Assembly (NCBI GenBank): GCA_029238935.1
Contig: JAQZBN010000019.1
Coordinates: 1-64,000 of the forward strand
Length of the DNA: 64,000 bases
Reading direction: 5' to 3'
Origin: Herbinix sp.
GTDB lineage: Bacteria > Bacillota > Clostridia > Lachnospirales > Lachnospiraceae
Shown: piece after piece, positions 2,164-32,077 of the stretch
Numbering within the stretch: the stretch's first letter is position 1
Layout: each line of letters opens with the position of its first letter
Program-made: the position numbers and the translations under genes
Notes under the pieces: model-generated
Seen by the model: the letters and a program-made list of their open reading frames with translations, nothing else
Told to the model about the DNA's origin: nothing
The model's database searches: none

Positions 2164-3288
2164 TCATAAATGACTACTCTTATTTGCAATCATCCTTGCT
2201 ACCTCTTTTAACCGAGGATAAGCATATTCCAAAAAACTATAGTAAGCTTTGCAATAATAATTGGTCGATATTCCTTCTTGATGATCCCTTTCTCTTGCAC
2301 ATCCTCCTCTACAAAGCGTATACCATTTACAATCATTACATCTTGAGCCATTCGATACAGAGATTTGAATAAACTTTTTAGTAGCATCACAATTAAGTAA
2401 CTCAACGACTGTGTTCTCCCTAATGCTTCCGAGCCGCCACTGATCAACCACGTAAAAGTCACATGGGTATACACTACCATCCGCTTCGACGACGAACTGA
2501 CACTGACAAATACCATTCATACTACAAGCTTCTGGCCGAAACCCAAGTATCATTCTTATCAAATTATCAAAGTATCTGATACTTACATATTCACCATTGG
2601 TGATATCCTTGTACCATAGATCAAAGGTATCCTTTAAAAATCTCTCATAGTGTTCCGGTTTCAATGAGTAGGGCCTTTGACCTTGCTTCTCATTCAATGG
2701 GTCTAGGCAGGGTATAAACTGAAGATATGTAAGATTGTTTTTCTTAAAAAACCCATAGATCAAATTGGCACTTCTTGCACTTTGAGCGGTTATAACGGAA
2801 AGTATATTATACTCTATTTTATGTTTATGAAACAACTCTACCGTCTTCATTACATTCTTAAAGGTTCCCTCTTGATTGGCATCCTTCCGATTTCTATTAT
2901 GAATCTCCTTGGGTCCATCCAGGGATAAACCAATTAAAAACTTATTATCTTTAAGAAATGCACACCATTCATCATTCATTAACATACCATTGGTCTGCAT
3001 AGAGTAGTTCACAGGAATCTTCTTTATATTATATTTTTGTACAATTTCTATAAACTCTATAAAATAATCAAGTCCTGCCATGGTAGGTTCACCACCTTGA
3101 AATGCAAAACTACATCCCTGATCAGCATAGGCAAAAGCTTCTCTTATCATATGTTCCATAGTATCAGAATTCATAATCCCATATGAATAAACCGTTCTTT
3201 TTTCTGCTAGGGAATGATAAAAGCAATATTGACATCGCAGTCCGCAATTACTGGATGCAGGTTTTATTAATAGGCTTATTGTAGGTAT
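2164..3288 (-). CDS. Anaerobic sulfatase-maturating radical SAM enzyme, ATA start
   Basis: The enzyme converts the active-site Cys (or Ser) of a sulfatase to formylglycine using S-adenosylmethionine and Fe-S clusters. Extending the frame upstream of the first ATG gives ISLLIKPASSNCGLRCQYCF, which holds the CxxxCxxC cluster motif (Cys15, Cys19, Cys22). That stretch matches the clostridial anSME N-terminus closely. Further marks are FAFQGGEPTMAG, SLDGPKEIHNRNRKD, and the C-terminal SPASM cysteines from about residue 255 onward (CQCQFVVEADGSVYPCDF, then C..C.....C...C). An in-frame TAA lies upstream, and no ATG, GTG or TTG occurs before the cluster motif. An ATA behind GGGAGGG sits exactly where the family Met is expected, so 3288 was chosen. 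The gene follows the sulfatase by 57 bases. Family confidence is high; the start codon is an inference. Confidence 0.9.
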   Translation of the reverse strand: MPTISLLIKPASSNCGLRCQYCFYHSLAEKRTVYSYGIMNSDTMEHMIREAFAYADQGCSFAFQGGEPTMAGLDYFIEFIEIVQKYNIKKIPVNYSMQTNGMLMNDEWCAFLKDNKFLIGLSLDGPKEIHNRNRKDANQEGTFKNVMKTVELFHKHKIEYNILSVITAQSARSANLIYGFFKKNNLTYLQFIPCLDPLNEKQGQRPYSLKPEHYERFLKDTFDLWYKDITNGEYVSIRYFDNLIRMILGFRPEACSMNGICQCQFVVEADGSVYPCDFYVVDQWRLGSIRENTVVELLNCDATKKFIQISVSNGSRCNDCKWYTLCRGGCARERDHQEGISTNYYCKAYYSFLEYAYPRLKEVARMIANKSSHL

Positions 3289-3345
3289 ATCAAATCCCTC
3301 CCAAACCAGTTTTTATCATGCTGTCTAATTAATGTTTCATTTGAA

Positions 3346-4794
3346 TTATTTATACTTCTTCTCTAACTGGTCTGCACCTTCACTTCTCCCTGTATTTCTT
3401 AGCCTGATCAGGTATTTATCGAGATTTCCTTTTGCATGAAAAGGTCCCCCCTCTTCTATCACTGTCCAGAGTGGATCTACTTTGTGATCCGCAGATAACA
3501 ACATCTCATCATGCCAGTTAAGGAGAATTCTAGCCGCTTTGTCACATATGTCCTGCCTGCTTGCAGCAAGATTATGTTCTTCATAAGGATCATCCTTCAG
3601 GGAAAACAGCATCTCTTTATCAAACAGATGGTATCCGTCATGATAGGTTCTGATATAGATCCAATCCTCAAATCTTACTGCTCTTTGGCATACATGAGCC
3701 ATTTGAGATAAAACTAGGAACTCCTGTCCTCTGTCCTCTCCCGCTACGATTGTATCGGCATAACTTTTTCCATCCCATTTTTTATAAGGCTGCACCTTGA
3801 AAAGATCAGCCATGGTAGGACATAGGTCAATATTATAATGTAATCCTTTATCCACATAGTTCTTTTTTCCACCGGGCCATTTGATTATCATCGGTATACG
3901 ACAGGTTGCATGGTCAGCAGTTCCATGTTCTGCATAAATCCCCAGTTCACCAAAGTTTTCACCATGGTCTGAAGTAATAATGACTGCAGTTTCTTCATAA
4001 ATTCCCTTTTCTTTTAATAAATCAAATACCTGCCCCAGAACATGATCGGCATACCATATACCGGTATCATATCCATCGATTACTTTTCTTAATCCCTCCA
4101 TATCGGAAGCCTTGCCTGGTTGCCTCGGAAATGCTGGGTTCTCCCAGTCATCATACATACTAATTTCGTTAATACTATGGGGGCCAACATGCTTCAAATG
4201 TTGGTTTAGGACGTCTTCTGTTATCCATTTCGGAAGGGGATCATGTTCAAAAGGATTACCATATTCCATCGGAGTTCTGTAAGGTGTATGAGGATCCCAC
4301 AGATGAAGGTGTAAAAACCAATTATCCTGTGCACCCTTTCGTTCGATCCAATCCAATGCAACCGGTAGAACCTCATCTCCTCTTTCATCACCACGTTTTC
4401 CAACGTTATAAATCTCATGAAAACCGGAATTAAACCACCAGGATGAATGCCTCTCCGGAAATGTACTAATTGATGTTGTGCGTAATCCTGCTTTACGGAA
4501 GATATAATTAAAATTATTCGTGTCTATTTCAGATACAAAACCTCGGTCTCTTCCATCCAGCATTCTGTCACCGGTAGTACCTCCATGTCCAACAGCACCA
4601 TTATGTATTCCAAACATACCACTGATTAATGCTGCCCGGGATGGAAGACAAGGTGCGTCAGAACAATAATAATTATCGAACATAACACCTTCCTTGGCTA
4701 TCTGGTCAAAATTTGGAGTAGTATTACGATGGTACCCATAGCACCCCATATGGTCCGGCCTTAATGTATCAATGTCAACAAATAACACTCTCAT
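3346..4794 (-). CDS. Formylglycine-dependent sulfatase-family hydrolase
   Basis: This 482-residue member of the alkaline phosphatase superfamily, sulfatase branch, would hydrolyse a sulfate ester, or possibly a phosphodiester as some family members do. The N-terminal metal-binding strand is FVDIDTLRPDHMGCYGY. The modification motif is CLPSR at Cys49-Arg53, the Cys-type motif matured by the adjacent anSME. The second metal site is in IITSDHGENFGELGIYAEHG. No signal peptide is seen, so the protein appears cytosolic and would act on imported oligosaccharide. GGAGG precedes the ATG. It lies between the secreted GH144 and the maturase in the glucan operon, suggesting it removes a charged substituent from the glucan. 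The actual substrate is unknown. Confidence 0.9.
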   Translation of the reverse strand: MRVLFVDIDTLRPDHMGCYGYHRNTTPNFDQIAKEGVMFDNYYCSDAPCLPSRAALISGMFGIHNGAVGHGGTTGDRMLDGRDRGFVSEIDTNNFNYIFRKAGLRTTSISTFPERHSSWWFNSGFHEIYNVGKRGDERGDEVLPVALDWIERKGAQDNWFLHLHLWDPHTPYRTPMEYGNPFEHDPLPKWITEDVLNQHLKHVGPHSINEISMYDDWENPAFPRQPGKASDMEGLRKVIDGYDTGIWYADHVLGQVFDLLKEKGIYEETAVIITSDHGENFGELGIYAEHGTADHATCRIPMIIKWPGGKKNYVDKGLHYNIDLCPTMADLFKVQPYKKWDGKSYADTIVAGEDRGQEFLVLSQMAHVCQRAVRFEDWIYIRTYHDGYHLFDKEMLFSLKDDPYEEHNLAASRQDICDKAARILLNWHDEMLLSADHKVDPLWTVIEEGGPFHAKGNLDKYLIRLRNTGRSEGADQLEKKYK

Positions 4795-4893: not shown

Positions 4894-6405
4894 TTACTGA
4901 ATGGCACATGCTTCCATTCCCTTTTGTACATATTCGTTCTTCATAAATTGATCCCATATAAATCCACTCTGATAATTTACCAGCTGAACAAGGGTGATAC
5001 CCTTGTCTATCCCAAGATAACACTTTGTAATGTGTCCCTTTTTCCCTTGATCCAAGTTATAGGATTCATAGAAACCATAGGGGCCCCAGGTATCCGGATA
5101 ATTGGTATAATAGTGTAGCATCGCTTCTTTTGAATATTCCGGAGTAAATGGCATGGAAGCAATCGCTCCGTACAGAGCGATAGTACCGTCATTGGCACCT
5201 AAGGGTTCCCCCTGAGGCATACCGTTTGGCTCTGCCCCATAAAGACCATTGTAACCTTTTTTACCTAGACACGCAGAAAGTCCCCAGGAATTCTCATGAT
5301 AGGTCTTAGAGATATCTTTATGGTCGATAGAATACTGTCTGGAGGCAAGGGTTGCCTGAATGGAGTTCTCAAACCAGTTAATACCCTTTTTATCGGTTTT
5401 ACCTCTAAAATCCACATACGCATGGCTAAATTGATAAGCAAATAAGGAATTTGCCCAGGAACGTATAAAGGTAAAGTCCCCATAAGTCGCTTTCCAACGC
5501 TGAAATCCATAAAACAAATCACCTGAAACAGGATAGGTTGGTGACCCTGCTCCAAGAATATACATCATAAACTGCTCCGCAGCCACATCCCATTCACCAA
5601 CTTTTTTCATATTACCATCGTCTCCAGGCTGATAAGCCATATAAAAACGGTTATTGCTTTTGACAATCTGATCCCATTTGACTTTTTTATAGATATCTTC
5701 GTAGGTTGCTTTCACATCCCCTTGAAAATACTCTGCTGCGACGGTAGCACCGCAGAGGAATAATGCCGTATCAATGGTAGATACCTCAACATCATATTTC
5801 TCACCGGTGGATAAATGATAGAAATGATAATAAAACCCGTCAACGCTTTCTAATTTATCCCGAAAGGTAATGAGAGTATTTAAGCTTCTCTCCTGACCCT
5901 CTTCCAAACTGATGTATCCTTTCTCCACACCTATCGCATAAGCGGATAATGCAAAACCAGTACTAGCGATGGATGAAAAATCCAAGTCACCGGTATTTCC
6001 ATCCCTACTTAAGCCATAGCCTTCCGAACCCAACTCTGTTTGAGTCTCATTCCAAAAATAATCAAATGCACCTTTTATCTCCATCTCAATCAGCTCATCT
6101 GCCGTAATTTCAACTGCTTCAGAGTTGACTGTATCATTTGCGGAAGAGCTTTCTTCCTGGGCGGTGTTATTATCCTGCGAAGTGCTATCATCCTGTGAGG
6201 TGTTTCCCTCCGATGAGGTGTTATCATCCTGTAAGCTGCTACCATCCTGCGAGGTGTTTTCACTCTGCGAGGAGTCTATCGTATCGGAAGAATTACTCTC
6301 AGTAATACTACTGGATGGAGCATTCACTTCATCCTTTTTACTGCATCCTGTTATCGCTAATAGAACGATAATTAATAGGAATACAAAAAATGCTCTAAGT
6401 TTTAT
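4894..6405 (-). CDS. Secreted GH144-type glucanase lipoprotein, ATA start
   Basis: The first ordinary start in this frame (GTG at 6327) would omit the export signal. Upstream in frame, beginning at ATA 6405, the protein reads IKLRAFFVFLLIIVLLAITG followed by CSKK, a textbook lipoprotein signal with the lipidated Cys at residue 21. AAGGAGG lies 9 bases before the ATA. A low-complexity Ser/Thr/Asp/Gln linker follows (about 30-105), made of imperfect NTSQD repeats. Then comes a globular domain of about 390 residues with SSIASTGFALSA, DTALFLCG and WGPYGFYES. These belong to the glucoamylase-like family that includes GH144 endo-beta-1,2-glucanases. It probably cleaves glucan at the outer membrane face. 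The specificity is inferred from the neighbouring GH94. A paralogue without signal lies at 30830. Confidence 0.85.
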   Translation of the reverse strand: MKLRAFFVFLLIIVLLAITGCSKKDEVNAPSSSITESNSSDTIDSSQSENTSQDGSSLQDDNTSSEGNTSQDDSTSQDNNTAQEESSSANDTVNSEAVEITADELIEMEIKGAFDYFWNETQTELGSEGYGLSRDGNTGDLDFSSIASTGFALSAYAIGVEKGYISLEEGQERSLNTLITFRDKLESVDGFYYHFYHLSTGEKYDVEVSTIDTALFLCGATVAAEYFQGDVKATYEDIYKKVKWDQIVKSNNRFYMAYQPGDDGNMKKVGEWDVAAEQFMMYILGAGSPTYPVSGDLFYGFQRWKATYGDFTFIRSWANSLFAYQFSHAYVDFRGKTDKKGINWFENSIQATLASRQYSIDHKDISKTYHENSWGLSACLGKKGYNGLYGAEPNGMPQGEPLGANDGTIALYGAIASMPFTPEYSKEAMLHYYTNYPDTWGPYGFYESYNLDQGKKGHITKCYLGIDKGITLVQLVNYQSGFIWDQFMKNEYVQKGMEACAIQ

Positions 6406-6438
6406 AGCGATCCACCTCCTTACTTAATAACACGAATA

Positions 6439-8763
6439 CTAGAAGCTGATTTTCCTTTGAAACTCAATTTCCATCGTATCCTCTAGCGTAATCAATGGTG
6501 ACTTTCCGTTCATCATTTCATAGTCACCGATAAATTTAAGTTCTAGTATTGGGGTTTTCATCGTGAATCTACAAAGAATTGCATCCGCTTCATAGCGAAC
6601 AGCTTTTAATTCCTGCGTAGCATAAAGTAAAGTGAAATCCTTAGCAAGCTTTAGATTAACCGGAAGAATAAGACCTTCCCTGCCATTCACTTCAATGATT
6701 GTATCCTCAAAAGGCTCAGCTCCGTTATAGCTTAGACTTATCTGCTTCTTCCAATCGTCAAGATTGTTAATCATAAAAAATTCACTTTGGCTATGTATAT
6801 CCTTTAGGCAGTGAACCATCACATCAGCATTTACCTGTACCTTTGGCCCAATTCCCAGCATGGTAAATGCACTTCGAAAGCCGTCTCTTACATAATCATA
6901 TCCGGTATCAACAATCCCTCCCAGAACGACAAGCTGCCCTAAACCAATTCTCTTAGAAATTCCCACTGCATATTCTTTTTGCTTCCCAGCAACGGCGATA
7001 CACTCATAATCATCTTTCGTATTCATAGAGTATCTTTGTCCACCGTATACACCAATTTCTGAATGTCCATTTATACAAATCATTTCGTGCTGATGAAAAT
7101 GTTCAATCGATACATCGATCGCATCTTTTACTATAGTACAGCTCCTTCCCATCAAATCGTACTGAGGAATCTTAGGGTACATGAAAACTTTACCACCTCG
7201 CTGTATATAATCTACCAGACTTTTTTGAACAGCCTCATCCATATAGTCCGTGGAAAATACAATTAAGTTTTCACAACTTTGAAGTCCTGGTTCTGTTAGT
7301 TGTGATTTGGATAAACCTACAACGTTAAGATTTTCATAGATCAGATATCTGCCCAAGCTGTTAAACAATCCATAATTTAAATCAGCTCCGATTTTCTCTA
7401 CCATTTCCTGATTTTCTTTGTTCTTATAATCTGTAAGGAAATAATCAATATCTACGAACAAGCAGGTATCGGCAACCGGTTGAGCTTTGACAAAAGGTTC
7501 TCCATACGCATCAATTACATCTTTTAAATGCTTTAATAACTCATAGCTTTTACGAAGCTCACCCTTGGCGCTGATTGGTGCCTGCCAATCATGATTTTTA
7601 CTGATAATGCCCAGATCCTCATAATTGTAACCACCTACAAACATGTAGTAATTAATGGCTTTCATTCCTTGTGCGATACATATTCTTGAATTAAGATCAT
7701 GGGTATTGGGCTGTAATCTTGGTACTGAGTTTTGAAAGCCGCTTTGAAATTCCGCTGAAAACAAAGGCTGCCCAGGATCTTGCATACTTTTCGTCAGTAC
7801 ATTGGCAAGGTACAAATCCTGTACGTTATCATATACAACATTTCCAATATAATAATCTCCGGCAACGATGACATTATCTAACTCGAAGCATTTTTTTAAC
7901 TGGCTTAATCCGATGGGATATTGATTTCCTCTCTTAGCGTAATCCTGCTGCGTAAATCCATGGACATTTATGATTACGGGAATTTCCAGTCCATATTGTT
8001 TTGCAATATTGATTAGCTTTAATAAATATTTTTGAAGATATATTCTTTCATAATAGCGGTACTCGTTAAGCAGTTCGCCACTTTCTTCCTTCAGCTGCTG
8101 TTTTACTTCCTCAATCTGAGACAGAAGGTTTGTTTCACTATTTGTAATGCCCAACTCCTGATTTCTTGTCAATACAAAATCTGCAAGTACACTATGGCTA
8201 AAATCCGGTGTATGGGTCACCCAATGAAACATTCCGATCTCATTATCCAGCTGTGCCATGACGATACACCCACCCCTGCTGCTCTGATGAGGTGCGAGTA
8301 ATTCAAAAACTGCCTGATACCAACGATCCACTTTTTCCAAATAAACCGGATGCAAAAACTGAACCAACTCATATACCGGATGTTTACTTCCATCCAGGCG
8401 TTCTGCTCTGATTTCCTCGTAATTTTCTAATAACCAACCAGGAAGTCCGGCATCTTTGAGTTCACTCATAACATAGGGACCGGGTCTGATGCATAGCTTC
8501 ATCTCATGATATTCAACTAATTCCACAAAGCTCTTCAGATCCCTTTCTCTGGTCGTACTGCCCGTAAGATCAATCGTTCCTTCTTCTTTCTCATGCCAGA
8601 TCCATGGAATATAAGTACTAATCATGGAAAATCCTGCGTTTTTTATTTTTAAAATTCGGTCCTCCCATTCCTCACAGGGAACTCTGAAATAATGGAGTTC
8701 CCCACCTAGAATAAAAGTTTCTTTCTCATTTATTTTAAATACTGAGTCTTCAAATGTAAGCAT
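6439..8763 (-). CDS. GH35-type glycosidase or transglycosidase, copy A
   Basis: This 774-residue protein has a GH35 catalytic barrel in its first ~370 residues, starting LTFEDSVFKINEKETFILGG. The motif IRPGPYVMSE is present. The presumed acid/base is Glu175 in QLDNEIG and the presumed nucleophile is Glu338 in SAEFQSG. A beta-galactosidase trimerisation-like / flavodoxin-like region and beta-rich C-terminus follow. It has no signal peptide, so it is cytosolic. The start at 8763 was chosen because AGGAG lies 7 bases upstream and it aligns with its paralogue; an ATG ten codons earlier lies inside the permease gene. Most annotation pipelines would call it beta-galactosidase. In this locus an activity on beta-1,2-linked glucosides is more likely, since GH35-related enzymes acting on that linkage have been described. 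Confidence 0.85.
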   Translation of the reverse strand: MLTFEDSVFKINEKETFILGGELHYFRVPCEEWEDRILKIKNAGFSMISTYIPWIWHEKEEGTIDLTGSTTRERDLKSFVELVEYHEMKLCIRPGPYVMSELKDAGLPGWLLENYEEIRAERLDGSKHPVYELVQFLHPVYLEKVDRWYQAVFELLAPHQSSRGGCIVMAQLDNEIGMFHWVTHTPDFSHSVLADFVLTRNQELGITNSETNLLSQIEEVKQQLKEESGELLNEYRYYERIYLQKYLLKLINIAKQYGLEIPVIINVHGFTQQDYAKRGNQYPIGLSQLKKCFELDNVIVAGDYYIGNVVYDNVQDLYLANVLTKSMQDPGQPLFSAEFQSGFQNSVPRLQPNTHDLNSRICIAQGMKAINYYMFVGGYNYEDLGIISKNHDWQAPISAKGELRKSYELLKHLKDVIDAYGEPFVKAQPVADTCLFVDIDYFLTDYKNKENQEMVEKIGADLNYGLFNSLGRYLIYENLNVVGLSKSQLTEPGLQSCENLIVFSTDYMDEAVQKSLVDYIQRGGKVFMYPKIPQYDLMGRSCTIVKDAIDVSIEHFHQHEMICINGHSEIGVYGGQRYSMNTKDDYECIAVAGKQKEYAVGISKRIGLGQLVVLGGIVDTGYDYVRDGFRSAFTMLGIGPKVQVNADVMVHCLKDIHSQSEFFMINNLDDWKKQISLSYNGAEPFEDTIIEVNGREGLILPVNLKLAKDFTLLYATQELKAVRYEADAILCRFTMKTPILELKFIGDYEMMNGKSPLITLEDTMEIEFQRKISF

Positions 8764-8764
8764 G

Positions 8765-9676
8765 TTATTCTCCTGTGATTCCTGATTTGTCAACGCTTTC
8801 TACGAACTGCTTCTGCAAGATAGCATAGAAGATCAAAAGTGGTACGATGGTGATAAAATTAGAAGCCATTTTTACCGGAATATTGATTTGCGCTGCATTC
8901 GGGTCCTTATTTGCCAAATTCTCCAGCGTACTTAAGACGGATGCCATTTGGATTGGTAAAGTCCCCGCTTCCCCGATGTAAAGCGTTGTTAAATAGTTTT
9001 CATTCCAATACCATACCACCGAAAATATCATGGTAAGAATAATTGCCGGAATGGATAGTGGAATGGCAATTCTTCGAAAAATCTGCATAGCTGAAGCTCC
9101 ATCAATCTGAGCAGCCTCATCCAGAACTCTTGGAATTGTATTAAAAAAGTTAAAGAATATTAGGATGAAGATCGAACTCTTTAACCCCTGCCCCAAGATC
9201 GCCGGTAGGAAAAAAGATAATTTACTTCCGATCAACCCCAGCTCATTGTATCCTAAATAAGTGGGTATCATCAGCACCTGGCTAGGGATTACGAAGGATA
9301 CAATAACCAAGGCGATGTATAACTTCTTTAATCGAAAATCAAATCGCGAAAGACCGTAGCCCATGAAACCGCATGCTACCACCTGTAGTGCGGAGGAGGT
9401 AAATGATAGGAAGATACTTTGCGTTAAGCCTTTCCAAAAATTCATTTTAGAAAACAGAAGCTTGTAATTATCCAACACGATCTGGCTTGGTACCAAATGG
9501 ACAAAGGGATTGAAGATATCTCCCTGTGACATCAAGCTTCGCAATACCATATAAACAATCGGGTAAATAAATACGAACCCAAAGATCAATAATAATGCAT
9601 AGGCGATCAGATTCATCAATCTTATTTTCCATATTTTTTTTGAGGTCATATGACTCATCTTTTTCGATACTTTCAT
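8765..9676 (-). CDS. Sugar ABC permease, MalG type (pair 2)
   Basis: This inner-membrane subunit of a carbohydrate uptake-1 type ABC transporter has about 303 residues and six membrane segments. The EAA loop DEAAQIDGASAMQIFRRIAIPL contacts the ATPase. The start at 9676 overlaps the preceding stop as ATGA and has AGGAAG upstream; a longer reading frame from 9760 would lie inside the other permease. It pairs with the upstream MalF-type gene. No ATP-binding subunit is encoded in the locus, so a shared MsmK-type ATPase elsewhere in the genome must energise it. Confidence 0.92.
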   Translation of the reverse strand: MKVSKKMSHMTSKKIWKIRLMNLIAYALLLIFGFVFIYPIVYMVLRSLMSQGDIFNPFVHLVPSQIVLDNYKLLFSKMNFWKGLTQSIFLSFTSSALQVVACGFMGYGLSRFDFRLKKLYIALVIVSFVIPSQVLMIPTYLGYNELGLIGSKLSFFLPAILGQGLKSSIFILIFFNFFNTIPRVLDEAAQIDGASAMQIFRRIAIPLSIPAIILTMIFSVVWYWNENYLTTLYIGEAGTLPIQMASVLSTLENLANKDPNAAQINIPVKMASNFITIVPLLIFYAILQKQFVESVDKSGITGE

Positions 9677-15758: not shown

Positions 15759-15768
15759 ATCTTCACCT

Positions 15769-19597: not shown

Positions 19598-19640
19598 GAT
19601 TTCCCTTTCCGCTACTTGCATACTTGTTTTCATTTCATCC

Positions 19641-21289: not shown

Positions 21290-21304
21290 GAAAACGCTTA
21301 AACC
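21290..21304 (-). promoter_or_regulatory. LacI-like operator copy 1
   Basis: GAAAACGCTTAAACC on the plus strand, centred on a CG step as in LacI-family sites. It lies just downstream of the predicted start point of the binding-protein promoter, a position suited to repression. The same 12-base core GAAAACGCTTAA occurs twice more in this divergent region. Confidence 0.65.
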
Positions 21305-21429: not shown

Positions 21430-21443
21430 ACTTAAGCGTTTTC
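21430..21443. promoter_or_regulatory. LacI-like operator copy 2 (inverted)
   Basis: ACTTAAGCGTTTTC, the reverse complement of the operator core, lies about midway between the two arms. It could let a LacI tetramer or dimer pair contact both promoters, or serve as a site for a catabolite regulator with a similar core. Confidence 0.6.
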
Positions 21444-21578: not shown

Positions 21579-21592
21579 GAAAACGCTTAACC
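21579..21592 (+). promoter_or_regulatory. LacI-like operator copy 3
   Basis: GAAAACGCTTAACC lies 22 bases before the ATG of the plus-strand GH35 gene, in its leader. Together with copy 1 it places one operator just inside each arm. No strong plus-strand promoter could be assigned; a TATATA at 21496-21501 is the best -10 candidate. Confidence 0.6.
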
Positions 21593-24014: not shown

Positions 24015-24029
24015 AATAGAATCAATGAG

Positions 24030-24140: not shown

Positions 24141-25151
24141 ATGAAAACTATCAATGATGTTGCTCAATTAGCTGGTGTTTCAGTAGCTACTGTATCTAAA
24201 GTATTTAACGGAAGAAAAGGAGTTAGCGAAGAAACACGCCAGCGTATAATAGAAATTGCCGAGGAGCTGGATTATTTCCCGAATCATTCTGCTTCTCAAT
24301 TAGCTCGGGGAAAAAGAGAAACGATTGGTGTTGTTTTTTCTTTACTTGAGAGCAAAACTCTTCAGGACGAATATTTAATCCGAATCATCAATGGTATTTT
24401 TAACAAGGCCGAGCTCCTTGGTTACCGAATACTTGTTTTTACAACTAACACGGTGGAACGTAACAATCAAAACTTCTTACAGTTTTGCCGCTCTAATAAT
24501 TTGGCTGGATTAATTATTCATGGTCTGGATCGGGATGATCCTCAACTAGAGAAATTAATCAACAGTGAGATCCCCTGCGTTTTTATTGATATTAATATAT
24601 CCGGTACAAAAACAACGAATATTTCTGTCGACAACGTTACAGCATGCATCGATGTGGTCAATATTTTAACCGGATTAAATCATCAGCATATCGCATTTGT
24701 ATCCGGTAACCTACACTCCTCCGTAGCTCTTGATCGATTAAAAGGATATGAAATCGGAATGAAAGCCATGAACTGGCCTTTGCATGTGATCGAATGTGAT
24801 TATTCCAAAGAGAATGCTTATAAACTCAGCAAGGATTATCTTCTTTACCATCCAGAAATTACAGCCTTTTTCTGTGCTTCTGATCTTATGGCAGTGGGCG
24901 TTTTGGATGCTTGTATAGAACTTGGTTATAAAGTACCGGAGGATATGTCCATCATCGGTTTTGATAATCTTAGCTTTACACAACACATAAAGCCACAATT
25001 ATCAACTGTGGCACAAAATTTCTATGAAATCGGCAATCAAGCCGTTGATTTGCTTGAAGATATCACAAAGGGCAAGAAAATCGAAGATCACAACTACGTT
25101 CCTTATCATATAGAAATGCGAAAATCCACATCAAGGAACCATAGAATATAG
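24141..25151 (+). CDS. LacI-family transcriptional regulator
   Basis: This 336-residue regulator has a helix-turn-helix at 3-25 (INDVAQLAGVSVATVSKVFN) and a hinge helix SASQLARGKR. A periplasmic-binding-like effector domain follows, with IGVVFSLLES, GLIIHGLDRDD, SVDNVTACIDVV and MSIIGFDNLSFTQHIKPQLS. It sits inside the plus-strand arm between GH35 and the GH94 phosphorylase, so it very probably controls both arms through the three GAAAACGCTTAA sites. The inducer is probably a short glucan such as sophorose; this is inference. AAGGAG precedes the ATG. Confidence 0.92.
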   Translation: MKTINDVAQLAGVSVATVSKVFNGRKGVSEETRQRIIEIAEELDYFPNHSASQLARGKRETIGVVFSLLESKTLQDEYLIRIINGIFNKAELLGYRILVFTTNTVERNNQNFLQFCRSNNLAGLIIHGLDRDDPQLEKLINSEIPCVFIDINISGTKTTNISVDNVTACIDVVNILTGLNHQHIAFVSGNLHSSVALDRLKGYEIGMKAMNWPLHVIECDYSKENAYKLSKDYLLYHPEITAFFCASDLMAVGVLDACIELGYKVPEDMSIIGFDNLSFTQHIKPQLSTVAQNFYEIGNQAVDLLEDITKGKKIEDHNYVPYHIEMRKSTSRNHRI

Positions 25152-25200: not shown

Positions 25201-28200
25201 ATGGTTATCATTATGTTTTTACAAACAAACAATATAACGCTTGAGGTACTTGATACCGGGGATATAAGAAGTATATCTTATCAAGACATATGTATCAATC
25301 AGCTCTTCCCTAATCATATTGACACGATGGCAGCAAATATCTACCTTCGTATCAAAGAAAAAGGATCATATATCGTTCATCCATTACTCGGAAAGGAATC
25401 GAATGGTCAGTTTGCTGTCTTAGAAAACTCGAAACAACTGGTATACAAAGGCCAAGCGTCCGGCATTTCCTATACCGTTGTATATACCCTTGCTGAAGAT
25501 AAATGGTTCATCGATGTTAAATTACATCCAACCTTTGCCGAATCTGCAAAAACCATCGATCTAATCTACGGACAGGATATCGGGCTTGCTTCAAAAGGTC
25601 ATATTCAAGGTAATGAAGCCTATAATTCACAGTATATTGATCATAAAGTGTTCGAAACGGAACAAGGTTATATTGTCTGCTCTAGGCAAAACCAGTGGCA
25701 GGCCTCAGGACAAACAGGTTTTCCTATGCTCCAGCAGGGCTCCTTCCAGCAGGTTCGTTCCTTTTCCACCGATGGTTATCCTTTTTACGGATTAAGTTAT
25801 AAAATTGATGGACAGTTAAAGGAATTACATAGTGAAACCCTGAATAATCGCGTTTATCAATACGAATTTGCTTATACCTCTTTACAGACATTGGAAACAT
25901 CACTGGATGAACCTGCTTATTTTACATTTTACGGTATAGTAAATCCAAGTATTGAAACAGCTATCACTTCTCCTATCCCTATGGATGTAATCAGGGAAAA
26001 TTACACATCTCCTAATTGGGAGTCCTTGGACATGGCTGCCGCTTTTCAAAATGTAAGTACAGTAATTCCTTGTATCTCTTCTCTTTCCTTTACGGACGAA
26101 GAAATCAATTCCATGTACAATATCAAGAGACATATAGAAAGCAAGGATGGTAAGCTCTTGAGCTTCTTTGGTGAAAATCACGAGCATGTAGTTCTTATGG
26201 AGAAGGAACTCCAGGTGGAACGTCCTCATGGACATATCATGCTATCCGGAACCTCTGATTTTATTCATGAAGATCTCCTTGCAACCACCACTTACATATA
26301 CGGTGTATTCAGTTCACAAACTGTTGTAGGAAACACCTCCTTTAACAAACTTACGACAAATTGTCGAAATGCTTTAAACGTAAGCAAGGTTTCCGGCCAA
26401 AGAATTATGATCAAAAGAAATGGGATTTACACTCTCCTTACCATGGCAGGTATCTATGAACTTGGATACAACTACACCAAATGGTTCTATAAGTTTGAGG
26501 ATGATGTAATTGAACTGATCAGTTATACAAATCATAAATCTCCTACCCTTACCTTAGAACTTCACTCCAAAAATAACAAGAGTTATGATATCGCTGTATT
26601 TTGCGAATTATGTAATGGACCAGGACCTTATGATGCACCTTTTCAATACGAATTCAAGGATCAAACAGTTACAATCCGACACGATGCTAACACTCTATCA
26701 GGCAGCTCTTATCCAGGTCTTCATTTTAATATTACTGCAGACCAAGCTTTTGATTTACATAATGATGCTTTCTTCTACCAAAACCTCCAAACAAGAAAGG
26801 AGCCTTATTTAGTTTGGGAATTCCGTCAAGTACAACAGGTTACCATGACAACCACCGGCTTTATTCAAGCCGAGGAAGTGGAAGTTTTACCAACAACCTT
26901 TGAGCATGAAAAAAATACCTTTTTGGATTGGATTAACATCGCTACGAACGGCTTTTCTGTGGAGCTTAATAAAAATACAGAATTTTCGGAAGAAGTAGAT
27001 CAGATGAATGATTTGGTCTTCTGGTACAGTCATAATGCCAGGGTTCATTTTCTCTCCCCACATGGTCTGGAACAATTCGGAGGTGCCGCTTGGGGTACTA
27101 GGGATGTCTGCCAAGGTCCTTTTGAGTACTTTTTATCTTTTCAAAACTATCCGGTTCTTAAAAATATGTTGCTGACGATCTATCGTCACCAATATGAAGA
27201 AAACGGAAATTGGCCTCAATGGTTTATGTTTGACAGATATTACACCATCCAACACCACGAAAGCCATGGAGATATTATCGTCTGGCCATTAAAAGCTCTA
27301 TCTGATTATATAAAAGCCACGGGGGATTTCACTATTCTGAAGGAAGAGTTAGAATATACTCATATCACCGGCTACGAATTCACTAAGCATACAGAACCAC
27401 TTGCTAAGCATGTGCGAAAACAAATTGATTATATCCTTCAGAACTTTATCCCAAATACACACTTATCCTGCTATGGGGATGGTGACTGGGATGATACACT
27501 TCAGCCTTCCAACCCAGCTCTCAGAAAAAGTATGGTCAGTGGCTGGACTGTAACGTTAACCTATCAGGTTTTCAGAGAATTTGGGGAGCTTATGTTATCC
27601 CATGACCCCGAGTTAAGCAAGGAATTAACTCAGATCTCTTCCGAAATTAAAAAAGACTACCATCATTATATTATTAAAAACGGAGTAACCTCAGGATTTA
27701 TCCATTTTGACGGTGATGATATTAAATATTTGCTGCATCCCGAAGACAAGACAACCGGATTAAACTACCGTCTTTTACCAATGACCCGTTCCTGTATCAG
27801 TGAAATGTTCGACTTATCGGAGGCAAATACCCACTATTCTCTTATTAAGGAGCATCTATATCATCCTGATGGGGTACGCTTGATGAATCGGACCTGTACC
27901 TATCGGGGCGGCGTGAATACCTATTTTAAACGAGCTGAGACAGCTGCAAACTTTGGCCGGGAAATCGGACTTCAATATGTTCACGCCCATATTCGCTTTA
28001 TCGAAAGCATGGCAAAACTCGGTAAAGTAGATGAGACCTGGGATAATTTATTAAAAGTACTTCCCATCAATATTAAAAACCATGTGCCGAATGCCTCTTA
28101 CCGGCAGAGCAATTGCTATTTCAGCAGTAGTGATGGTGAGTTTGATAATCGCTACGAAGCCATGGCTGATTTTGACAAATTAAAAAGTGGTAGCATCCCC

Positions 28201-28533
28201 GTTAAGGCTGGTTGGAGAATTTATTCCAGTGGCCCAGGAATACTACTCAATCAATTAATCTCTAATGTCCTTGGACTTAGAATTGAACAGGATGATGTGA
28301 TAATCGATCCCGTATTACCGGATAAATTAAATGGTCTGACTTTCCAATATGAAATTCTTCACAAGCCAGTGAAAATTATCTACGAAATTCAGAACAATGG
28401 ACCAATTCAGGCAATCTACATCAATGATCAATTAATTCCGTATACTACTGTGGAAAACCCTTACCGCCCTGGCGGTGCAAAATTTAAGACCTCTCTTGTT
28501 ACAAAAGATTGTGTCATCCGTATCCTCAAGTAA
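25201..28533 (+). CDS. GH94 phosphorylase, 1,2-beta-oligoglucan phosphorylase type
   Basis: This large 1110-residue enzyme would split beta-1,2-gluco-oligosaccharides with phosphate to release alpha-glucose 1-phosphate. It has N-terminal beta-sandwich domains (about 1-580) and a helical (alpha/alpha)6 barrel (about 620-1010). The barrel holds AWGTRDVCQGPFEY and CYGDGDWDDTLQPSNPALRK at 757-776, whose Asp in GDWDD is the expected general acid. The size and the DWDDTLQP motif fit the long 1,2-beta-oligoglucan phosphorylases described from Listeria and L. phytofermentans rather than the ~800-residue cellobiose phosphorylases (DWNDG). No signal peptide, so cytosolic. The start may be the second ATG at 25213, because AGAAAGG touches the first. 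Together with GH3 and GH144 it defines the locus substrate. Confidence 0.85.
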   Translation: MVIIMFLQTNNITLEVLDTGDIRSISYQDICINQLFPNHIDTMAANIYLRIKEKGSYIVHPLLGKESNGQFAVLENSKQLVYKGQASGISYTVVYTLAEDKWFIDVKLHPTFAESAKTIDLIYGQDIGLASKGHIQGNEAYNSQYIDHKVFETEQGYIVCSRQNQWQASGQTGFPMLQQGSFQQVRSFSTDGYPFYGLSYKIDGQLKELHSETLNNRVYQYEFAYTSLQTLETSLDEPAYFTFYGIVNPSIETAITSPIPMDVIRENYTSPNWESLDMAAAFQNVSTVIPCISSLSFTDEEINSMYNIKRHIESKDGKLLSFFGENHEHVVLMEKELQVERPHGHIMLSGTSDFIHEDLLATTTYIYGVFSSQTVVGNTSFNKLTTNCRNALNVSKVSGQRIMIKRNGIYTLLTMAGIYELGYNYTKWFYKFEDDVIELISYTNHKSPTLTLELHSKNNKSYDIAVFCELCNGPGPYDAPFQYEFKDQTVTIRHDANTLSGSSYPGLHFNITADQAFDLHNDAFFYQNLQTRKEPYLVWEFRQVQQVTMTTTGFIQAEEVEVLPTTFEHEKNTFLDWINIATNGFSVELNKNTEFSEEVDQMNDLVFWYSHNARVHFLSPHGLEQFGGAAWGTRDVCQGPFEYFLSFQNYPVLKNMLLTIYRHQYEENGNWPQWFMFDRYYTIQHHESHGDIIVWPLKALSDYIKATGDFTILKEELEYTHITGYEFTKHTEPLAKHVRKQIDYILQNFIPNTHLSCYGDGDWDDTLQPSNPALRKSMVSGWTVTLTYQVFREFGELMLSHDPELSKELTQISSEIKKDYHHYIIKNGVTSGFIHFDGDDIKYLLHPEDKTTGLNYRLLPMTRSCISEMFDLSEANTHYSLIKEHLYHPDGVRLMNRTCTYRGGVNTYFKRAETAANFGREIGLQYVHAHIRFIESMAKLGKVDETWDNLLKVLPINIKNHVPNASYRQSNCYFSSSDGEFDNRYEAMADFDKLKSGSIPVKAGWRIYSSGPGILLNQLISNVLGLRIEQDDVIIDPVLPDKLNGLTFQYEILHKPVKIIYEIQNNGPIQAIYINDQLIPYTTVENPYRPGGAKFKTSLVTKDCVIRILK

Positions 28534-28546
28534 GAAAGGTACTAAC

Positions 28547-30763
28547 ATGAATTTATATGAAGAACAAATAAAAAAACTTTCTCATCCTCCTCTCCCAAAG
28601 AGGAGGAAAGAGGAAATCCAAAACCTCGTTGCAGAGTTGCTGTCAAAAATGACCTTACGAGAGAAAATAGGTCAGTTATTTCAAACCGCTCCTAACGATG
28701 CTCATATTGAAGGTCTTCGCTTTGACGATAGCCACGGTACGGTTCAGTATATTAAAGAAGGCTTATGTGGATCAATTTTAGGTGTCCACACTCCCATTAA
28801 CGCATACCAATTGCAAAGAATCGCTGTGGAAGAAACCAGACTTGGGATTCCTCTTTTCTTTGGACTCGATATCATCCACGGATGCAGGACTATATTTCCG
28901 ATCAATCTGGCAATGAGCTGCAGCTTCAACCCAGAGCTAATCGAAAAAGCAAGCTCTGTGGCAGCTGCTGAATCTGCCCATACCGGCATCAGCATAACGT
29001 ATTCTCCTATGGTAGATGTTGTTCGAGATCCCAGATGGGGAAGAGTGATGGAAAGCAACGGAGAAGATTCTTATCTAAGCCGTATCCTGGGGCGAGCGTA
29101 TATAAGGGGTTACCAGCAGGATGACTTATCCGGTAATCAAGCCATTGGAGCTTGTGTCAAACATTTTGCTGGCTATGGGGCTGTGGAAGCCGGTCGGGAA
29201 TACAATTCAGTAGATCTATCTGATCGTCAGCTTCGTATGAATTATCTTCCGGCTTATCAAAGCTGTGTAGACGAGGACTGCGCCAGCATTATGTCCTCCT
29301 TCAATGTCATTGACGGTGTTCCATCCACCTGCAACAGGTATCTGCTCACAGATATTTTAAGAAATGAATGGGGCTATGAAGGTTTTGTTATCTCAGATTA
29401 TACCTCTACCTTCGAGATCATGAACCATAAGATTACAACGGATGCAAAGGAAGTCGCAAAGCTTTGCCTTAATGCCGGTCTCGACCACGAGATGGTCTCC
29501 AATCACTACATTACTTATCTGGAAGAATTGGTACGGGAAAATCAGGTAGATACTCATACGATAGAAGAAAGCTGTAAGCGTATTCTCACCTTCAAATACA
29601 AGCTTGGTCTATTCGATAACCCCTATAAGTACATCTACCATGAACCGGAACAATATATGCAGTTGCCAGAATATCGCGAATTAGCCTTAGAGATAGCGAA
29701 AAACTCTATTGTTCTCCTGAAAAACGAGAATCAGGTGCTACCAGTTCAAAAGAATAAAAAAGTTGCTTTGATTGGCCCTGCCGCTCTTACGAAAAATGTT
29801 GTGGGCGGCTGGGGAGGTCTTGGACGCGTCGAAGAATGTGTATCCTTTTATGAAGGTATGAAGAACAGTGGTTATGATGTCATAGCTCATGAGGGCTGCT
29901 CCTTCGAAGGTGCTGAACATGATGATCAGCTAATGGAAGAAGCTCTAAGGATAGCCGCAGAAGCAGAGGTATTACTTCTTGCCATTGGTGAGCCGGATTA
30001 CCTTACCGGGGAATGGAGTTCCCGTTCCGAACTTTGTCTGACAGGCCGCCAGTTAGAATTGGTTGCACGTCTAAAGCTGCTTGGCAAACCCATGATTGGT
30101 GTGATTTTTTCCGGTCGTCCTCTGGATCTAACCTGGTGCACAGACAACTTGGACGGCTTGATTTACGGCTGGTATCTTGGGAATGAAACTGGTAATGCTT
30201 TAGCTTCTGTTATCAGTGGGGATTACAACCCAACGGGAAAACTCACCATGTCCTTTCCTAGAAGAGTTGGACAAATTCCCGTTTACTACAATCAGTTACC
30301 CACAGGTCGCCCCTCTCTTACCGGTGGCCCAAGAGATTTATTTAAAAGCTGCTATACCGATATCCCCAATTCTCCATTATATCCTTTTGGATACGGCTTA
30401 AGTTATACCACTTTTAACTATAAAAACTTAAGATTATCCACAAACTGCATCAAAGGATTAGAGGAAACGGTGGTTTCTGTGGATATCACCAATACCGGAC
30501 GTTGTCCTGGTAAGATTATATCCCAGCTATACATTGAAGCTCTTAGTTTTTCTGTTAGTAGACCTGTTAAGGAGTTTAAAGGTTTTGAACATACCTACCT
30601 GGAGGTTTCTGAAACGAAAACCATAAGCTTTGTAATCAATAGAGAGATGTTGTCCTATCTGAACATTTACAATGAAATGACTCCGGAGAATCGAACCTAC
30701 CGAATATTTATCGGAAGTGATTCCTCAACCTCTGATTATCAACAGCTGGAGTATAAGGAATAA
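28547..30763 (+). CDS. GH3 beta-glucosidase
   Basis: This 738-residue retaining beta-glucosidase has a GH3 N-terminal barrel with FGLDIIHGCRTIFP, SPMVDVVRDPRWGRVMES and KHFAGYG. The nucleophile is Asp284 in FVISDYTS. The C-terminal sandwich has ALIGPAALTKNVVGGWGG and AIGEPDYLTGEWSSRSELCL, and the fibronectin-like tail has PLYPFGYGLSYTTFNY. No signal peptide is seen. It starts 13 bases after the phosphorylase stop, with AAGAAAGG upstream; an earlier ATG at 28475 lies inside the phosphorylase gene. It would trim sophorose or short glucans in the cytosol. A GH94-GH3 pair of this kind is known from Listeria for sophoro-oligosaccharides. Confidence 0.92.
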   Translation: MNLYEEQIKKLSHPPLPKRRKEEIQNLVAELLSKMTLREKIGQLFQTAPNDAHIEGLRFDDSHGTVQYIKEGLCGSILGVHTPINAYQLQRIAVEETRLGIPLFFGLDIIHGCRTIFPINLAMSCSFNPELIEKASSVAAAESAHTGISITYSPMVDVVRDPRWGRVMESNGEDSYLSRILGRAYIRGYQQDDLSGNQAIGACVKHFAGYGAVEAGREYNSVDLSDRQLRMNYLPAYQSCVDEDCASIMSSFNVIDGVPSTCNRYLLTDILRNEWGYEGFVISDYTSTFEIMNHKITTDAKEVAKLCLNAGLDHEMVSNHYITYLEELVRENQVDTHTIEESCKRILTFKYKLGLFDNPYKYIYHEPEQYMQLPEYRELALEIAKNSIVLLKNENQVLPVQKNKKVALIGPAALTKNVVGGWGGLGRVEECVSFYEGMKNSGYDVIAHEGCSFEGAEHDDQLMEEALRIAAEAEVLLLAIGEPDYLTGEWSSRSELCLTGRQLELVARLKLLGKPMIGVIFSGRPLDLTWCTDNLDGLIYGWYLGNETGNALASVISGDYNPTGKLTMSFPRRVGQIPVYYNQLPTGRPSLTGGPRDLFKSCYTDIPNSPLYPFGYGLSYTTFNYKNLRLSTNCIKGLEETVVSVDITNTGRCPGKIISQLYIEALSFSVSRPVKEFKGFEHTYLEVSETKTISFVINREMLSYLNIYNEMTPENRTYRIFIGSDSSTSDYQQLEYKE

Positions 30764-30829
30764 TCGGAGCAAGGTATCTATCTTTCATAATAATATGAGT
30801 CGCTATCGGGCGGCAGATGGGAGAATGAA

Positions 30830-32077
30830 ATGACTTCTAGAGAACTACTAGATCTAGAGATGCGTAAGTGTTTTGATTTTTTTTGGGATACAAGTAACCA
30901 TATTGAAGGTAGTAAAGGGTATGGTCTTATGCTGGATCGTTCCAATAACCCTGCCCTATCTTCTATCGCATCCGTTGGATTCGCTTTAAGCAGTATTGTT
31001 GTTGGTGTTTTACACAAATACATTTCCTATGAGGAAGGGCTTCATAGAGCAAAAGGCACCCTTCATACCTTGCTTTATAACGTACCCCATTATGAAGGCT
31101 TCTTTGTTCATTTCTGTGACATGATGACTGCAAAGAGGCATAAGAACTGCGAATATTCCACGATAGATACTGCATTGTGTTTGAATGGAATTCTCGTTAT
31201 CGATGCATTTTTTAAGGATGAAGAAGTTCATCGGATGTCGGAAGCCATTATAAATCGAACCGACTATTCTAAATTCGTATTTTACCGGGATCAAAAGGCA
31301 TTTTTTCATATGGCCTATAATGATATTGTAGGAGGAGATTATACAAAGGACGGCTCAGGTTTCATCAGCGCATGGGATATGACGGCAGAACAGCTTATGA
31401 TGTATATTCAGGCTGCAGGTCAGGATAACATAGACGAAGAGACTGCCCGTAACCTCTATCTATCCTTTGATCGCCCCTATGGCATGTACAAAGACATTGG
31501 TTGTTATTATGAGCCCGGCGGCGTTTTATTTGTACACCAATATTCTCATTGCTGGTTTAAATTTCTGGAATACAAAGGATGCGACAATATTGATTGGTCC
31601 GTAAATACAAAAAATGCTACTCTTGCTCAAATTAAGTGGTGTCAGGATCAGCCTCATATCAAAACCTTTCGTGAGGGTTTATGGGGAGTCAGCGCTATGG
31701 ATGGAAAAGAAGGGTATATTGTTCACGGAACAGTACCCAGTAGGTCAATGAAACCACATAGTGATGGTACCATTGGTCCCTGTGCTATTGCCGGCTCGCT
31801 GCCCTATACCTATGAGGAAAGTGCCGTTGCCTTACAATATATTTATCATAATCATCCAACTATGTGGGGTCCTTATGGTTTTTATGATAGTATGAATAGC
31901 GAACAAGATTGGTATGCAAGCACTTATCTGGGCATTGATAAAGGTGAAACTATACTTATGATCAATAATGCGTTGTATGGAGAGGTTTGGGATTTATATA
32001 TGAACCATCCCCGGGTGAAAAATGCAATTCATAAGTTAGGTATGATACCGAGTAAAATAAAGCAAATAATACCATGA
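30830..32077 (+). CDS. Cytosolic GH144-type glucanase
   Basis: This 415-residue catalytic domain has no signal peptide, linker or membrane segment. It matches the secreted enzyme at 4894-6405 over its length: LSSIASVGFALSSIVVGV, STIDTALCLNG, AWDMTAEQLMMYIQAAG, WGVSAMDGKEGY and WGPYGFYDSMN. The glucoamylase-like domain family includes GH144 endo- and exo-acting beta-1,2-glucanases. A cytosolic copy probably shortens imported oligosaccharides or releases a fixed small product. GGGAGAATGAA precedes the ATG, 66 bases after the GH3 gene. It is the last gene of the plus-strand arm. Confidence 0.85.
   Translation: MTSRELLDLEMRKCFDFFWDTSNHIEGSKGYGLMLDRSNNPALSSIASVGFALSSIVVGVLHKYISYEEGLHRAKGTLHTLLYNVPHYEGFFVHFCDMMTAKRHKNCEYSTIDTALCLNGILVIDAFFKDEEVHRMSEAIINRTDYSKFVFYRDQKAFFHMAYNDIVGGDYTKDGSGFISAWDMTAEQLMMYIQAAGQDNIDEETARNLYLSFDRPYGMYKDIGCYYEPGGVLFVHQYSHCWFKFLEYKGCDNIDWSVNTKNATLAQIKWCQDQPHIKTFREGLWGVSAMDGKEGYIVHGTVPSRSMKPHSDGTIGPCAIAGSLPYTYEESAVALQYIYHNHPTMWGPYGFYDSMNSEQDWYASTYLGIDKGETILMINNALYGEVWDLYMNHPRVKNAIHKLGMIPSKIKQIIP

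Follow-up and report, generated by a model that had tools for sequence, protein, structure and literature searches.

The question raised by this locus is whether its genes together make up a route for the use of beta-1,2-glucan, as the first-pass annotation had read them, and what place a sulfatase with its maturase would have in such a route. Judged from the gene families, the conservation of most catalytic residues examined, the predicted protein locations and three conserved operators, this Lachnospiraceae locus very probably serves the utilisation of beta-1,2-glucan, with two arms under LacI control. The cluster, about 30 kb long, belongs to a Lachnospiraceae genome of 5.37 Mb that is 95% complete.

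Gene layout and regulation

According to the open reading frames and Pfam matches in the window (the whole 64-kb stretch of DNA that was analysed), 17 genes at 2164–32077 form two divergent arms, with three identical operator 12-mers in between. The two-arm gene set described earlier was borne out, the listed genes being found in this interval and their families matching by Pfam. Three more genes, absent from that list, code for a secreted protein with DUF5696, a membrane protein with NHL, TPR and Yip1 matches, and the LacI regulator. The DUF5696 protein (10557..12857; PF18952, E 1.5e-122) and the NHL/TPR/Yip1 protein (12850..14886; PF04893, weak NHL and TPR matches, and hydropathy) are encoded on the minus strand between two ABC permease pairs of the same strand, all four permeases being recognised by PF00528 (1b, 8765..9760, and 1a, 9673..10560; 2b, 14886..15890, and 2a, 15769..16671).

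The LacI-family regulator is encoded in the plus-strand arm (24141..25151; PF00356, PF13377). The divergent gap measures 364 bp, and a motif search placed three copies of the operator GAAAACGCTTAA in it, at 21290..21301 (plus strand), 21432..21443 (minus strand) and 21579..21590 (plus strand). With up to one mismatch allowed, it was not found elsewhere in the 64-kb window, and no further exact copies were found in the 5.37-Mb genome, where the reversed-pattern control also gave 0. The expected number is 0.36 per window, and three copies anywhere in 64 kb were reached by 2 of 100 shuffles. The relative SIG294 keeps the three sites as GAAARCGCTTAA, in identical order and at near-equal spacing. 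With a LacI gene in the locus and three conserved copies in the gap, the operators had rightly been called LacI-like; the regulator gene inside the locus and a repeated operator-like site at both putative promoters suggest a LacI protein with its own operator.

Note that the mechanically assigned starts of the maturase and of GH144A are probably 5'-truncated. Reading in frame upstream of the mechanical start at 3174 brings in a CxxxCxxC motif for the maturase, and reading upstream of 6327 in the frame of GH144A brings in a lipoprotein signal; ATA codons at 3288 and 6405, respectively, are the likely starts. When SD-spaced starts were checked, ATA came up for two genes, a frequency not above that of several non-start codons; the evidence for the ATA starts is therefore the lipobox and the CxxxCxxC motif.

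Enzymes and binding proteins

The GH94 protein (25201..28533, plus strand) carries three SOGP-specific Pfam domains (PF21958, PF21250 and PF21270), with scores of 257 bits for SOGP_N, 261 bits for SOGP_2nd and 54 bits for SOGP_4th. In the PDB search it gave 815 bits with LpSOGP (5h3z) against at most 22 bits with cellobiose phosphorylases, and no laminaribiose phosphorylase was present among its seven matches. Grouping with cellobiose or laminaribiose phosphorylases, named beforehand as one result that would speak against the beta-1,2-glucan reading, was thus not observed in these matches, and assignment as a cellobiose or laminaribiose phosphorylase was rejected. All 12 LpSOGP residues checked (taken from PMC5309861, partial text) are conserved in the alignment to 5h3z, in which the chain numbering is that of the paper plus one; Y1004 and S1005 lie outside the aligned part checked. 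SOGP acts on chains of three or more (PMC5309861, partial text). In a search of the host genome, this protein and the two PF10091 proteins of the locus were the sole ones of their kinds found.

Both GH144-type enzymes previously proposed were recovered by PF10091 (A, 4894..6405, minus strand, E 4.5e-57; B, 30830..32077, plus strand, E 1.5e-50), but an export signal, the in-frame lipobox LAITGC, was present in A only, hydropathy giving no signal peptide in B. On these predictions GH144A looks like a lipoprotein, and the other enzymes look cytosolic. The assignment to GH144 was made by PDB matches, a comparison among enzymes of solved structure, which the characterised GH193 enzyme SkSGL lacks. 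XcSGL and CpSGL are among the matches of both proteins, XcSGL (8xul) being the best for A with 179 bits; the GH194 enzyme PgSGL3 (8xuk) gave 37 bits with A and is absent from the matches listed for B. Matched by eye to XcSGL (PMC12102758), the invariant E251, D186 and F296 (numbering of the GTG open reading frame of A), kept in both proteins, correspond to the general-acid Glu, the base Asp and the catalytic-centre Phe. Tyr367 of XcSGL, which stacks at subsite -3, falls where the alignments of both proteins contain gaps.

The best PDB match of the GH3 beta-glucosidase (28475..30763, plus strand; PF00933, PF01915) is JMB19063 with 629 bits, and Lin1840 stands in the seventh row with 543 bits. 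Two solute-binding proteins are encoded in the minus-strand arm: SBP989 (16664..19633; PF01547), a 989-aa protein predicted by hydropathy to be membrane-anchored, with a Lin1841-like C-terminal part and Lin1841 (5ysb) as best PDB match at E 4.2e-20, and a 503-aa lipoprotein (19739..21250; lipobox LVLTGC) that has no Pfam match and whose best PDB match is 22hh at E 1.5e-47. The SOGP-type GH94, both PF10091 proteins, the GH3 enzyme and SBP989 all fit beta-1,2-glucan and support the original reading.

For the two GH35 proteins (A, 6439..8793, minus strand; B, 21615..24014, plus strand), IaSGT was the best PDB match, with 225 bits in each case. GH35 A gave 195.5 bits with the exo-beta-D-glucosaminidase 5gsm, 193 with 5gsl ("hypothetical beta-galactosidase") and at most 173 with entries named beta-galactosidase; GH35 B gave 160 with 5gsl and 154 with 5gsm. 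IaSGT outscores the beta-galactosidase-named entries for both proteins, and beta-galactosidase was rejected as their function. Read by eye from the PDB alignments against PMC8861115, the seven IaSGT residues of the -1 site and catalysis (Y52, E102, N175, E176, N275, E343 and Y378) are all present in A and all present in B. Arg349 of the +1 acceptor site, which varies among IaSGT homologs (PMC8861115, partial text), is replaced by Gln in A and by Cys in B, and transferase action is uncertain for this reason. Kinship to IaSGT holds, the same acceptor use does not follow, and neither appears to be IaSGT proper; both are probably beta-1,2-glucosyl transferases or glucosidases rather than galactosidases.

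Related loci and the sulfatase

The best 80 of 424 SOGP relatives were surveyed with up to 10 kb on each side, some stretches being ended by contig ends. All neighbour-gene counts given here (SOGP, sulfatase and PF10091 loci, SIG294 and Bacillaceae) are lower bounds, with the longest of overlapping frames kept. At least 54 of the 80 loci had a GH3 match, at least 10 had a strong GH35 or GH144 match, and in at least nine of them parts of the transporter block were near SOGP; of the 80, a strong IaSGT-like GH35 was present in 7 of the 9 with DUF5696 against 1 of the 71 without it. A strong PF10091 protein below synthase size was also present in 13 further phylum-sample genomes; at least two of the stretches around it had a strong GH35, a low share that speaks against the present reading, and in five of the 13 the contig was under 7 kb or the stretch under 13 kb. 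As a marker for beta-1,2-glucan, DUF5696 was rejected, PF18952 matching in 46 of 398 phylum-sample genomes, in 39 of them above the cut-off, and also elsewhere in the host genome, on further contigs. The literature search returned nothing on DUF5696. Its structure model is weak (pLDDT 57, pTM 0.64), and the GH129/GH101-like fold it predicts (Foldseek E 8.6e-25 with GH129) may serve as a lead only; of 40 aligned members, a few of them almost the same in sequence, 90% share an acidic residue at a position where the window's protein has Lys.

The locus had been called unusually full, which holds in comparison with the commoner SOGP loci surveyed, but a similar cluster has already been published for Ignavibacterium album (PMC8861115, partial text). 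That cluster shares two GH144 proteins, a GH94 homolog, a sophoro-oligosaccharide-binding protein with an ABC transporter and a GH35 glucosyltransferase. The introduction of the paper mentions a putative GH3 as well, whose place is less plain because the Discussion describes the cluster as having no beta-glucosidase homolog. The paper compares the GH94 of that cluster to the C-terminal part of a cyclic glucan synthase and mentions a TonB-dependent transporter, whereas the Herbinix locus has two GH35 proteins, a full-length SOGP, a second permease pair, DUF5696, Yip1, LacI with three operators, the sulfatase and the maturase. The Listeria innocua lin1839/lin1840 cluster likewise has SOGP, a sophorose-preferring GH3 beta-glucosidase and a sophoro-oligosaccharide-binding protein (PMC4757417, PMC8861115, both partial text). 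The Lachnospiraceae MAG SIG294 (L183, L184, L185/L017) has both arms and the three operators at protein identities of 65–93%, its gene order matching as far as the contigs reach. One contig ends just past GH35A, before the expected place of GH144A and the sulfatase, neither of which was found in that genome, an absence that counts against the present reading. Halobacillus andaensis (L030) and Gracilibacillus sp. (L083) share the order SBP989-permease-Yip1-DUF5696-permease, SOGP and GH35 B, but have the block on one strand and an extra 425-aa protein; in L030 a further protein matches Exo_endo_phos in Pfam. The components are mostly of known kinds, and the locus is a fuller variant of a published kind; its standout is the formylglycine-type sulfatase with its maturase.

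The maturase (2164..3288, minus strand; Pfam Radical_SAM and SPASM), an anaerobic sulfatase maturase (anSME), exceeds the NCBIfam cut-offs of PRK13758 (466 bits; cut-off 441) and TIGR03942 (350.6; 349.45). The sulfatase (3346..4794, minus strand; PF00884, E 2e-45; no signal peptide by hydropathy) carries the C-x-P-x-R motif as C49-L-P-S-R and is accompanied by the anSME, the two features expected of a formylglycine-dependent sulfatase. Its best PDB match is a sulfatase, and rows 1–10 include the phosphonate monoester hydrolases/multifunctional alkaline-phosphatase-superfamily enzymes 4upk, 2w8s and 2vqr; the NCBIfam scores for arylsulfatase (121 bits) and PehA (119 bits) are both far under the cut-offs. 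The structure model is poor (mean pLDDT 46.5, from an alignment of three sequences).

Related sulfatases are present in other GH35/SOGP loci, as found in a search of 50 of the best 80 SOGP loci (13 chosen by gene content and the 37 next in number), a choice that biases the rates. The tree comprised the window's copy and 27 relatives, from 28 places with E 1e-120 or better; the L151 copy was lost because the longest of overlapping frames was retained. The window's copy falls in a clade mostly outside such loci, with a strong GH35 near 3 of the 18 others, against 6 of 8 in the sister clade, which also speaks against the present reading; it sits on a long branch, and its placement is uncertain, with fork support of 91/93. 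Neighbours within its clade, sampled by scanning 36 of 73 collected proteins, include further sulfatases, FGE and GH20-type genes. The sulfatases of H. andaensis and Gracilibacillus sp. are 46–48% identical to the window's, yet belong to another clade. Among the papers listed in the literature searches, judged by title and the start of the abstract, neither a link of a sulfatase to beta-1,2-glucan nor such an enzyme for phosphoglycerol-bearing glucan was found; the two that contain both sulfatase and 2-glucan deal with polysaccharides in general, and others treat glucan synthesis or different subjects. Both proteins are present as listed earlier, but beta-1,2-glucan as known does not explain them. 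The pair hints, unproven, at a beta-1,2-glucan substituted with sulfate or phosphodiester.

Proposed pathway and alternatives

In the pathway proposed, repression of both arms by the LacI protein would end with the entry of an inducer, probably a sophoro-oligosaccharide. At the cell surface the GH144A lipoprotein would cut beta-1,2-glucan, linear or cyclic, and import of the pieces would fall to both binding proteins and the two permease pairs, powered by an ATPase encoded elsewhere, the Yip1 and DUF5696 proteins possibly being membrane or surface accessories. In the cytosol, GH144B would shorten long pieces, SOGP would release glucose 1-phosphate by phosphorolysis from chains of at least three units, GH3 would split sophorose, and the GH35 proteins would move or release non-reducing-end glucose. 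The weakest step is the one in which the maturase-activated sulfatase would remove a charged substituent from imported pieces. It is a tentative idea, more doubtful than not, that both proteins are true pathway parts, sulfate or phosphodiester groups (e.g., phosphoglycerol) of a natural beta-1,2-glucan being stripped inside the cell before SOGP, and that Bacillaceae use for this the sister-clade sulfatase encoded between an IaSGT-like GH35 and the 425-aa protein, a new GH144 relative.

The two GH35 genes and the sulfatase would also suit a small sophorose-containing glycoside (a plant or microbial glucoside, a sophoroside or a sulfated conjugate) on whose aglycone side they act, and many alkyl and aryl glucosides do serve IaSGT as acceptors (PMC8861115, partial text). 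Such a substrate is improbable: a disaccharide glycoside would offer little to an SOGP with the chain-length preference given above or to a pair of GH144-like proteins of the endo type, of which one has an export signal, and the binding protein is Lin1841-like. A sulfated host or plant glycan, with the beta-1,2-glucan enzymes as side players, is less probable still. The neighbours of the sulfatase's clade relatives agree with it, but the locus has one sulfatase only and no other hydrolase family of the sulfated-glycan type among its Pfam matches, and the SOGP, GH144 and GH35 kinds all indicate beta-1,2-glucose links.

Recycling of the host's own cyclic beta-1,2-glucan was considered in view of PF10091 in frames of at least 2,700 aa, the size of cyclic glucan synthase, in 46 of 398 phylum-sample genomes. 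It was rejected as extremely unlikely: the host genome, at 95% completeness, has two PF10091 proteins only, both short, and the frames of its three PF06165 proteins measure 812–903 aa.

Use of beta-1,2-glucan from outside the cell is thus preferred, and the locus appears to encode, under a single regulator, every step by which a Lachnospiraceae cell would take extracellular beta-1,2-glucan to glucose 1-phosphate; this would link a sulfatase, a doubled permease block and two groups of GH35 to the glucan. Because of the synthase-sized PF10091 proteins in the phylum, the source of the glucan could be other Bacillota and not Proteobacteria alone. If the sulfatase step is true, one can search directly for a beta-1,2-glucan decoration not yet described.

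Arrangement and regulation of the two arms

The gene list of the first-pass annotation for 2164-32077 was borne out by the ORFs and Pfam families found there. The left arm, read leftwards from 21250, encodes a lipoprotein binding protein (503 aa), a 989-aa anchored binding protein, permeases 2a and 2b, an NHL/TPR/Yip1 membrane protein, a DUF5696 protein, permeases 1a and 1b, GH35A, GH144A, a sulfatase and a maturase. The right arm, from 21615, encodes GH35B, LacI, the 1,2-beta-oligoglucan phosphorylase (SOGP), GH3 and GH144B. No ABC ATPase was present among the Pfam matches of either arm. The genome comprises 5.37 Mb in 157 contigs (95% complete, 8% contamination).

The sequence GAAAACGCTTAA occurs at 21290 (+), 21432 (-) and 21579 (+), and these are all three of its exact copies in the genome; the predicted candidate operator sequence for the LacI protein is GAAARCGCTTAA. 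In Lachnospiraceae bacterium SIG294, which has a named SOGP relative, the gap between the arms carries GAAAGCGCTTAA, TTAAGCGTTTTC and GAAAGCGCTTAA at aligned positions, much of the surrounding sequence having drifted, and the LacI proteins of the two genomes are near-identical over their first 60 residues. The simplest reading would be that a single regulator governs both arms.

The SIG294 genes are spread over three contigs, and their products share 65-93% identity with those of the window. Contig L183 carries GH35A, permeases 1b/1a, DUF5696, Yip1, permeases 2b/2a, both binding proteins and, beyond the gap, the start of GH35B; L184 carries the remainder of GH35B, LacI and the start of SOGP; and L185 carries SOGP, GH3 and GH144B. 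In a genome from the separate phylum sample (G466), one contig carries the transporter block, GH144 and GH35, and a second carries SOGP and GH3.

Among the flanking genes, those scanned encode a response regulator, DUF6273, CotH and other proteins with no apparent relation to the locus. Downstream, at 42220-50484, lie genes for an ABC ATPase and a large FtsX/MacB-type permease, and a gene whose 538-aa product contains a sigma-70 region 4; these too look unrelated.

Enzymes and binding proteins

In the PDB search, the GH94 protein matched the characterised LpSOGP (5h3z) with 815 bits, and the remaining six matches were cyclic glucan synthases (24 bits) and cellobiose phosphorylases (22 bits or less). 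The N-terminal, second and C-terminal SOGP domains are all present according to Pfam, and all 12 LpSOGP residues that were taken from the available text of PMC5309861 and fall within the listed alignment stretch are conserved. The GH3 protein matched JMB19063 best (629 bits), followed by 543 bits for Lin1840, a Listeria enzyme with sophorose preference (PMC4757417, in part). For the C-terminal part of the 989-aa binding protein, the top PDB match is Lin1841 (5ysb, E 4.2e-20), described in the accessible part of PMC8861115 as a sophoro-oligosaccharide-binding protein of Listeria, and for the 503-aa lipoprotein it is 22hh (E 1.5e-47).

GH144A and GH144B are the only two PF10091 proteins that a genome-wide search found. 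The best PDB match of GH144A is XcSGL (8xul, 179 bits); GH144B scores highest with the putative glucoamylase 4gl3 (135 bits) and reaches 119 bits with XcSGL. The general acid, base and central Phe, as given in the consulted portion of PMC12102758, are invariant in an alignment of both proteins and five relatives. In this comparison, which covered GH144 and GH194, PgSGL3 (8xuk, GH194) gave 37 bits to GH144A and was absent from the GH144B match list; a further family, GH193, was found mainly in Gram-positive bacteria (PMC12102758, same portion). GH144B begins right at its PF10091 domain. GH144A has a lipoprotein signal in frame upstream of the mechanical ORF start, as does a relative in Paenibacillus castaneae. 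At the expected starts of GH144A (6405, - strand) and the maturase (3288, - strand), ATG, GTG and TTG are missing, and in both cases an ATA lies 7-10 bases past a strong Shine-Dalgarno sequence; this ATA may be the true start codon or else a sequence difference.

IaSGT is the best solved match for GH35A and GH35B alike (225 bits). Two entries follow: 5gsm, an exo-beta-D-glucosaminidase, scores 195.5 bits with GH35A and 154 with GH35B, and 5gsl, which is labelled a hypothetical beta-galactosidase in the PDB and which we take to be a GlmA, scores 193 and 160; entries named beta-galactosidase rank below (173 bits or less for GH35A, 145 or less for GH35B). In alignments read by eye, the seven -1 site and catalytic residues listed in the accessible text of PMC8861115 are conserved in both proteins. 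Arg349, described there as key to the IaSGT acceptor site and as a variable position, is replaced by Gln in GH35A and Cys in GH35B. Judged by their best match, both proteins fall with IaSGT, and either transfer or hydrolysis would be possible.

The DUF5696 gene (10557-12857) and the Yip1 gene sit between both permease pairs, in the window and in relatives. The predicted DUF5696 structure, a weak model, gave GH129 enzymes as top matches (E 8.6e-25, TM 0.55), and a GH129/GH101-like fold is predicted; a widely conserved Asp is Lys in this copy. A literature search on DUF5696 returned nothing. At least three more full-length DUF5696 matches occur elsewhere in the genome (contigs C16, C103 and C3; 3 of 11 candidates scored).

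Related loci and the sulfatase

SOGP loci were surveyed among the best 80 of 424 relatives, up to 10 kb per side; all counts are lower bounds. Among these 80, GH3 accompanies SOGP in at least 54, LacI in at least 68, DUF5696 in at least 9, a strong IaSGT-like GH35 in at least 8, a strong GH144 in at least 5 and a strong sulfatase in at least 2. In the same set, GH35 occurs in 7 of 9 loci with DUF5696 versus 1 of 71 without it (Fisher p 9e-8, kinship among Bacillota ignored).

The sulfatase has the C-x-P-S-R motif, and no signal peptide was seen by hydropathy; the maturase follows it and exceeds the anaerobic-sulfatase-maturase cut-offs. In the tree, the relatives form clades of 8 and 18 genes, with one more (37% identical) outside both. 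A strong IaSGT-like GH35 lies within the fetched stretch for 6 of the 8, and the Halobacillus member is separated by gaps of 26 and 14 bases from a GH35 gene and a gene for a 425-aa protein. The window's sulfatase joins the 18-gene clade on a long branch; here a strong IaSGT-like GH35 is nearby in 3 of 18, and 36 neighbouring proteins scanned from 13 members included 7 sulfatases and 2 FGE. Nearest by tree path is a gene of Neobacillus niacini (L145), with a maturase, second sulfatase, LacI, GH35A and both binding proteins as neighbours. Because of this clade and neighbour pattern, a link of the window's sulfatase to beta-1,2-glucan is only plausible.

Its substrate may be a sulfate ester or a phosphodiester. 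Near sulfatases of the GH35-linked clade lie phosphodiesterase-type Exo_endo_phos proteins, recognised by Pfam (L030, 18739-19539; L141, 9571-10365; L143, 6168-6938) or from similar protein starts only (L145, 3228-3998; L139, 11080-11883). The consulted part of PMC11842490 names succinate, phosphoglycerol and phosphoethanolamine on linear periplasmic glucans, and sulfate is not among the substituents named there.

A 421-430-aa protein adjoins IaSGT-like GH35 or sulfatase genes in Halobacillus andaensis (L030, 17402-18679), Gracilibacillus sp. (L083, 21033-22310) and three further loci (L034, 15281-16546; L040, 14529-15797; L141, 8213-9505). The three of five copies tested gave no Pfam match, and a short segment, 130 aa long in L030, is 27-30% identical to GH144A. 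The protein may form a new branch within the clan of beta-1,2-glucanases.

Distribution of SOGP and possible source of the glucan

SOGP (PF21250) is rare and patchy: counting the window's own genome, where a genome-wide search found the locus copy as its one SOGP, it occurs in 3 of 34 genus genomes, 4 of 200 in the family and 7 of 398 in the phylum sample. Open frames of at least 2,700 aa with a PF10091 match were present in 46 of the 398, and none was found in a genome-wide search of the window's genome. The solved cyclic glucan synthases have 2,799 and 2,818 aa; judged by size and domain, we infer that the large frames are such enzymes, a count that would make cyclic beta-1,2-glucan synthases common in the phylum. 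The assignment of 2164-32077 as a regulated beta-1,2-glucan utilisation locus is well supported by sequence comparison; loci of this kind are already known, and the present version is fuller.
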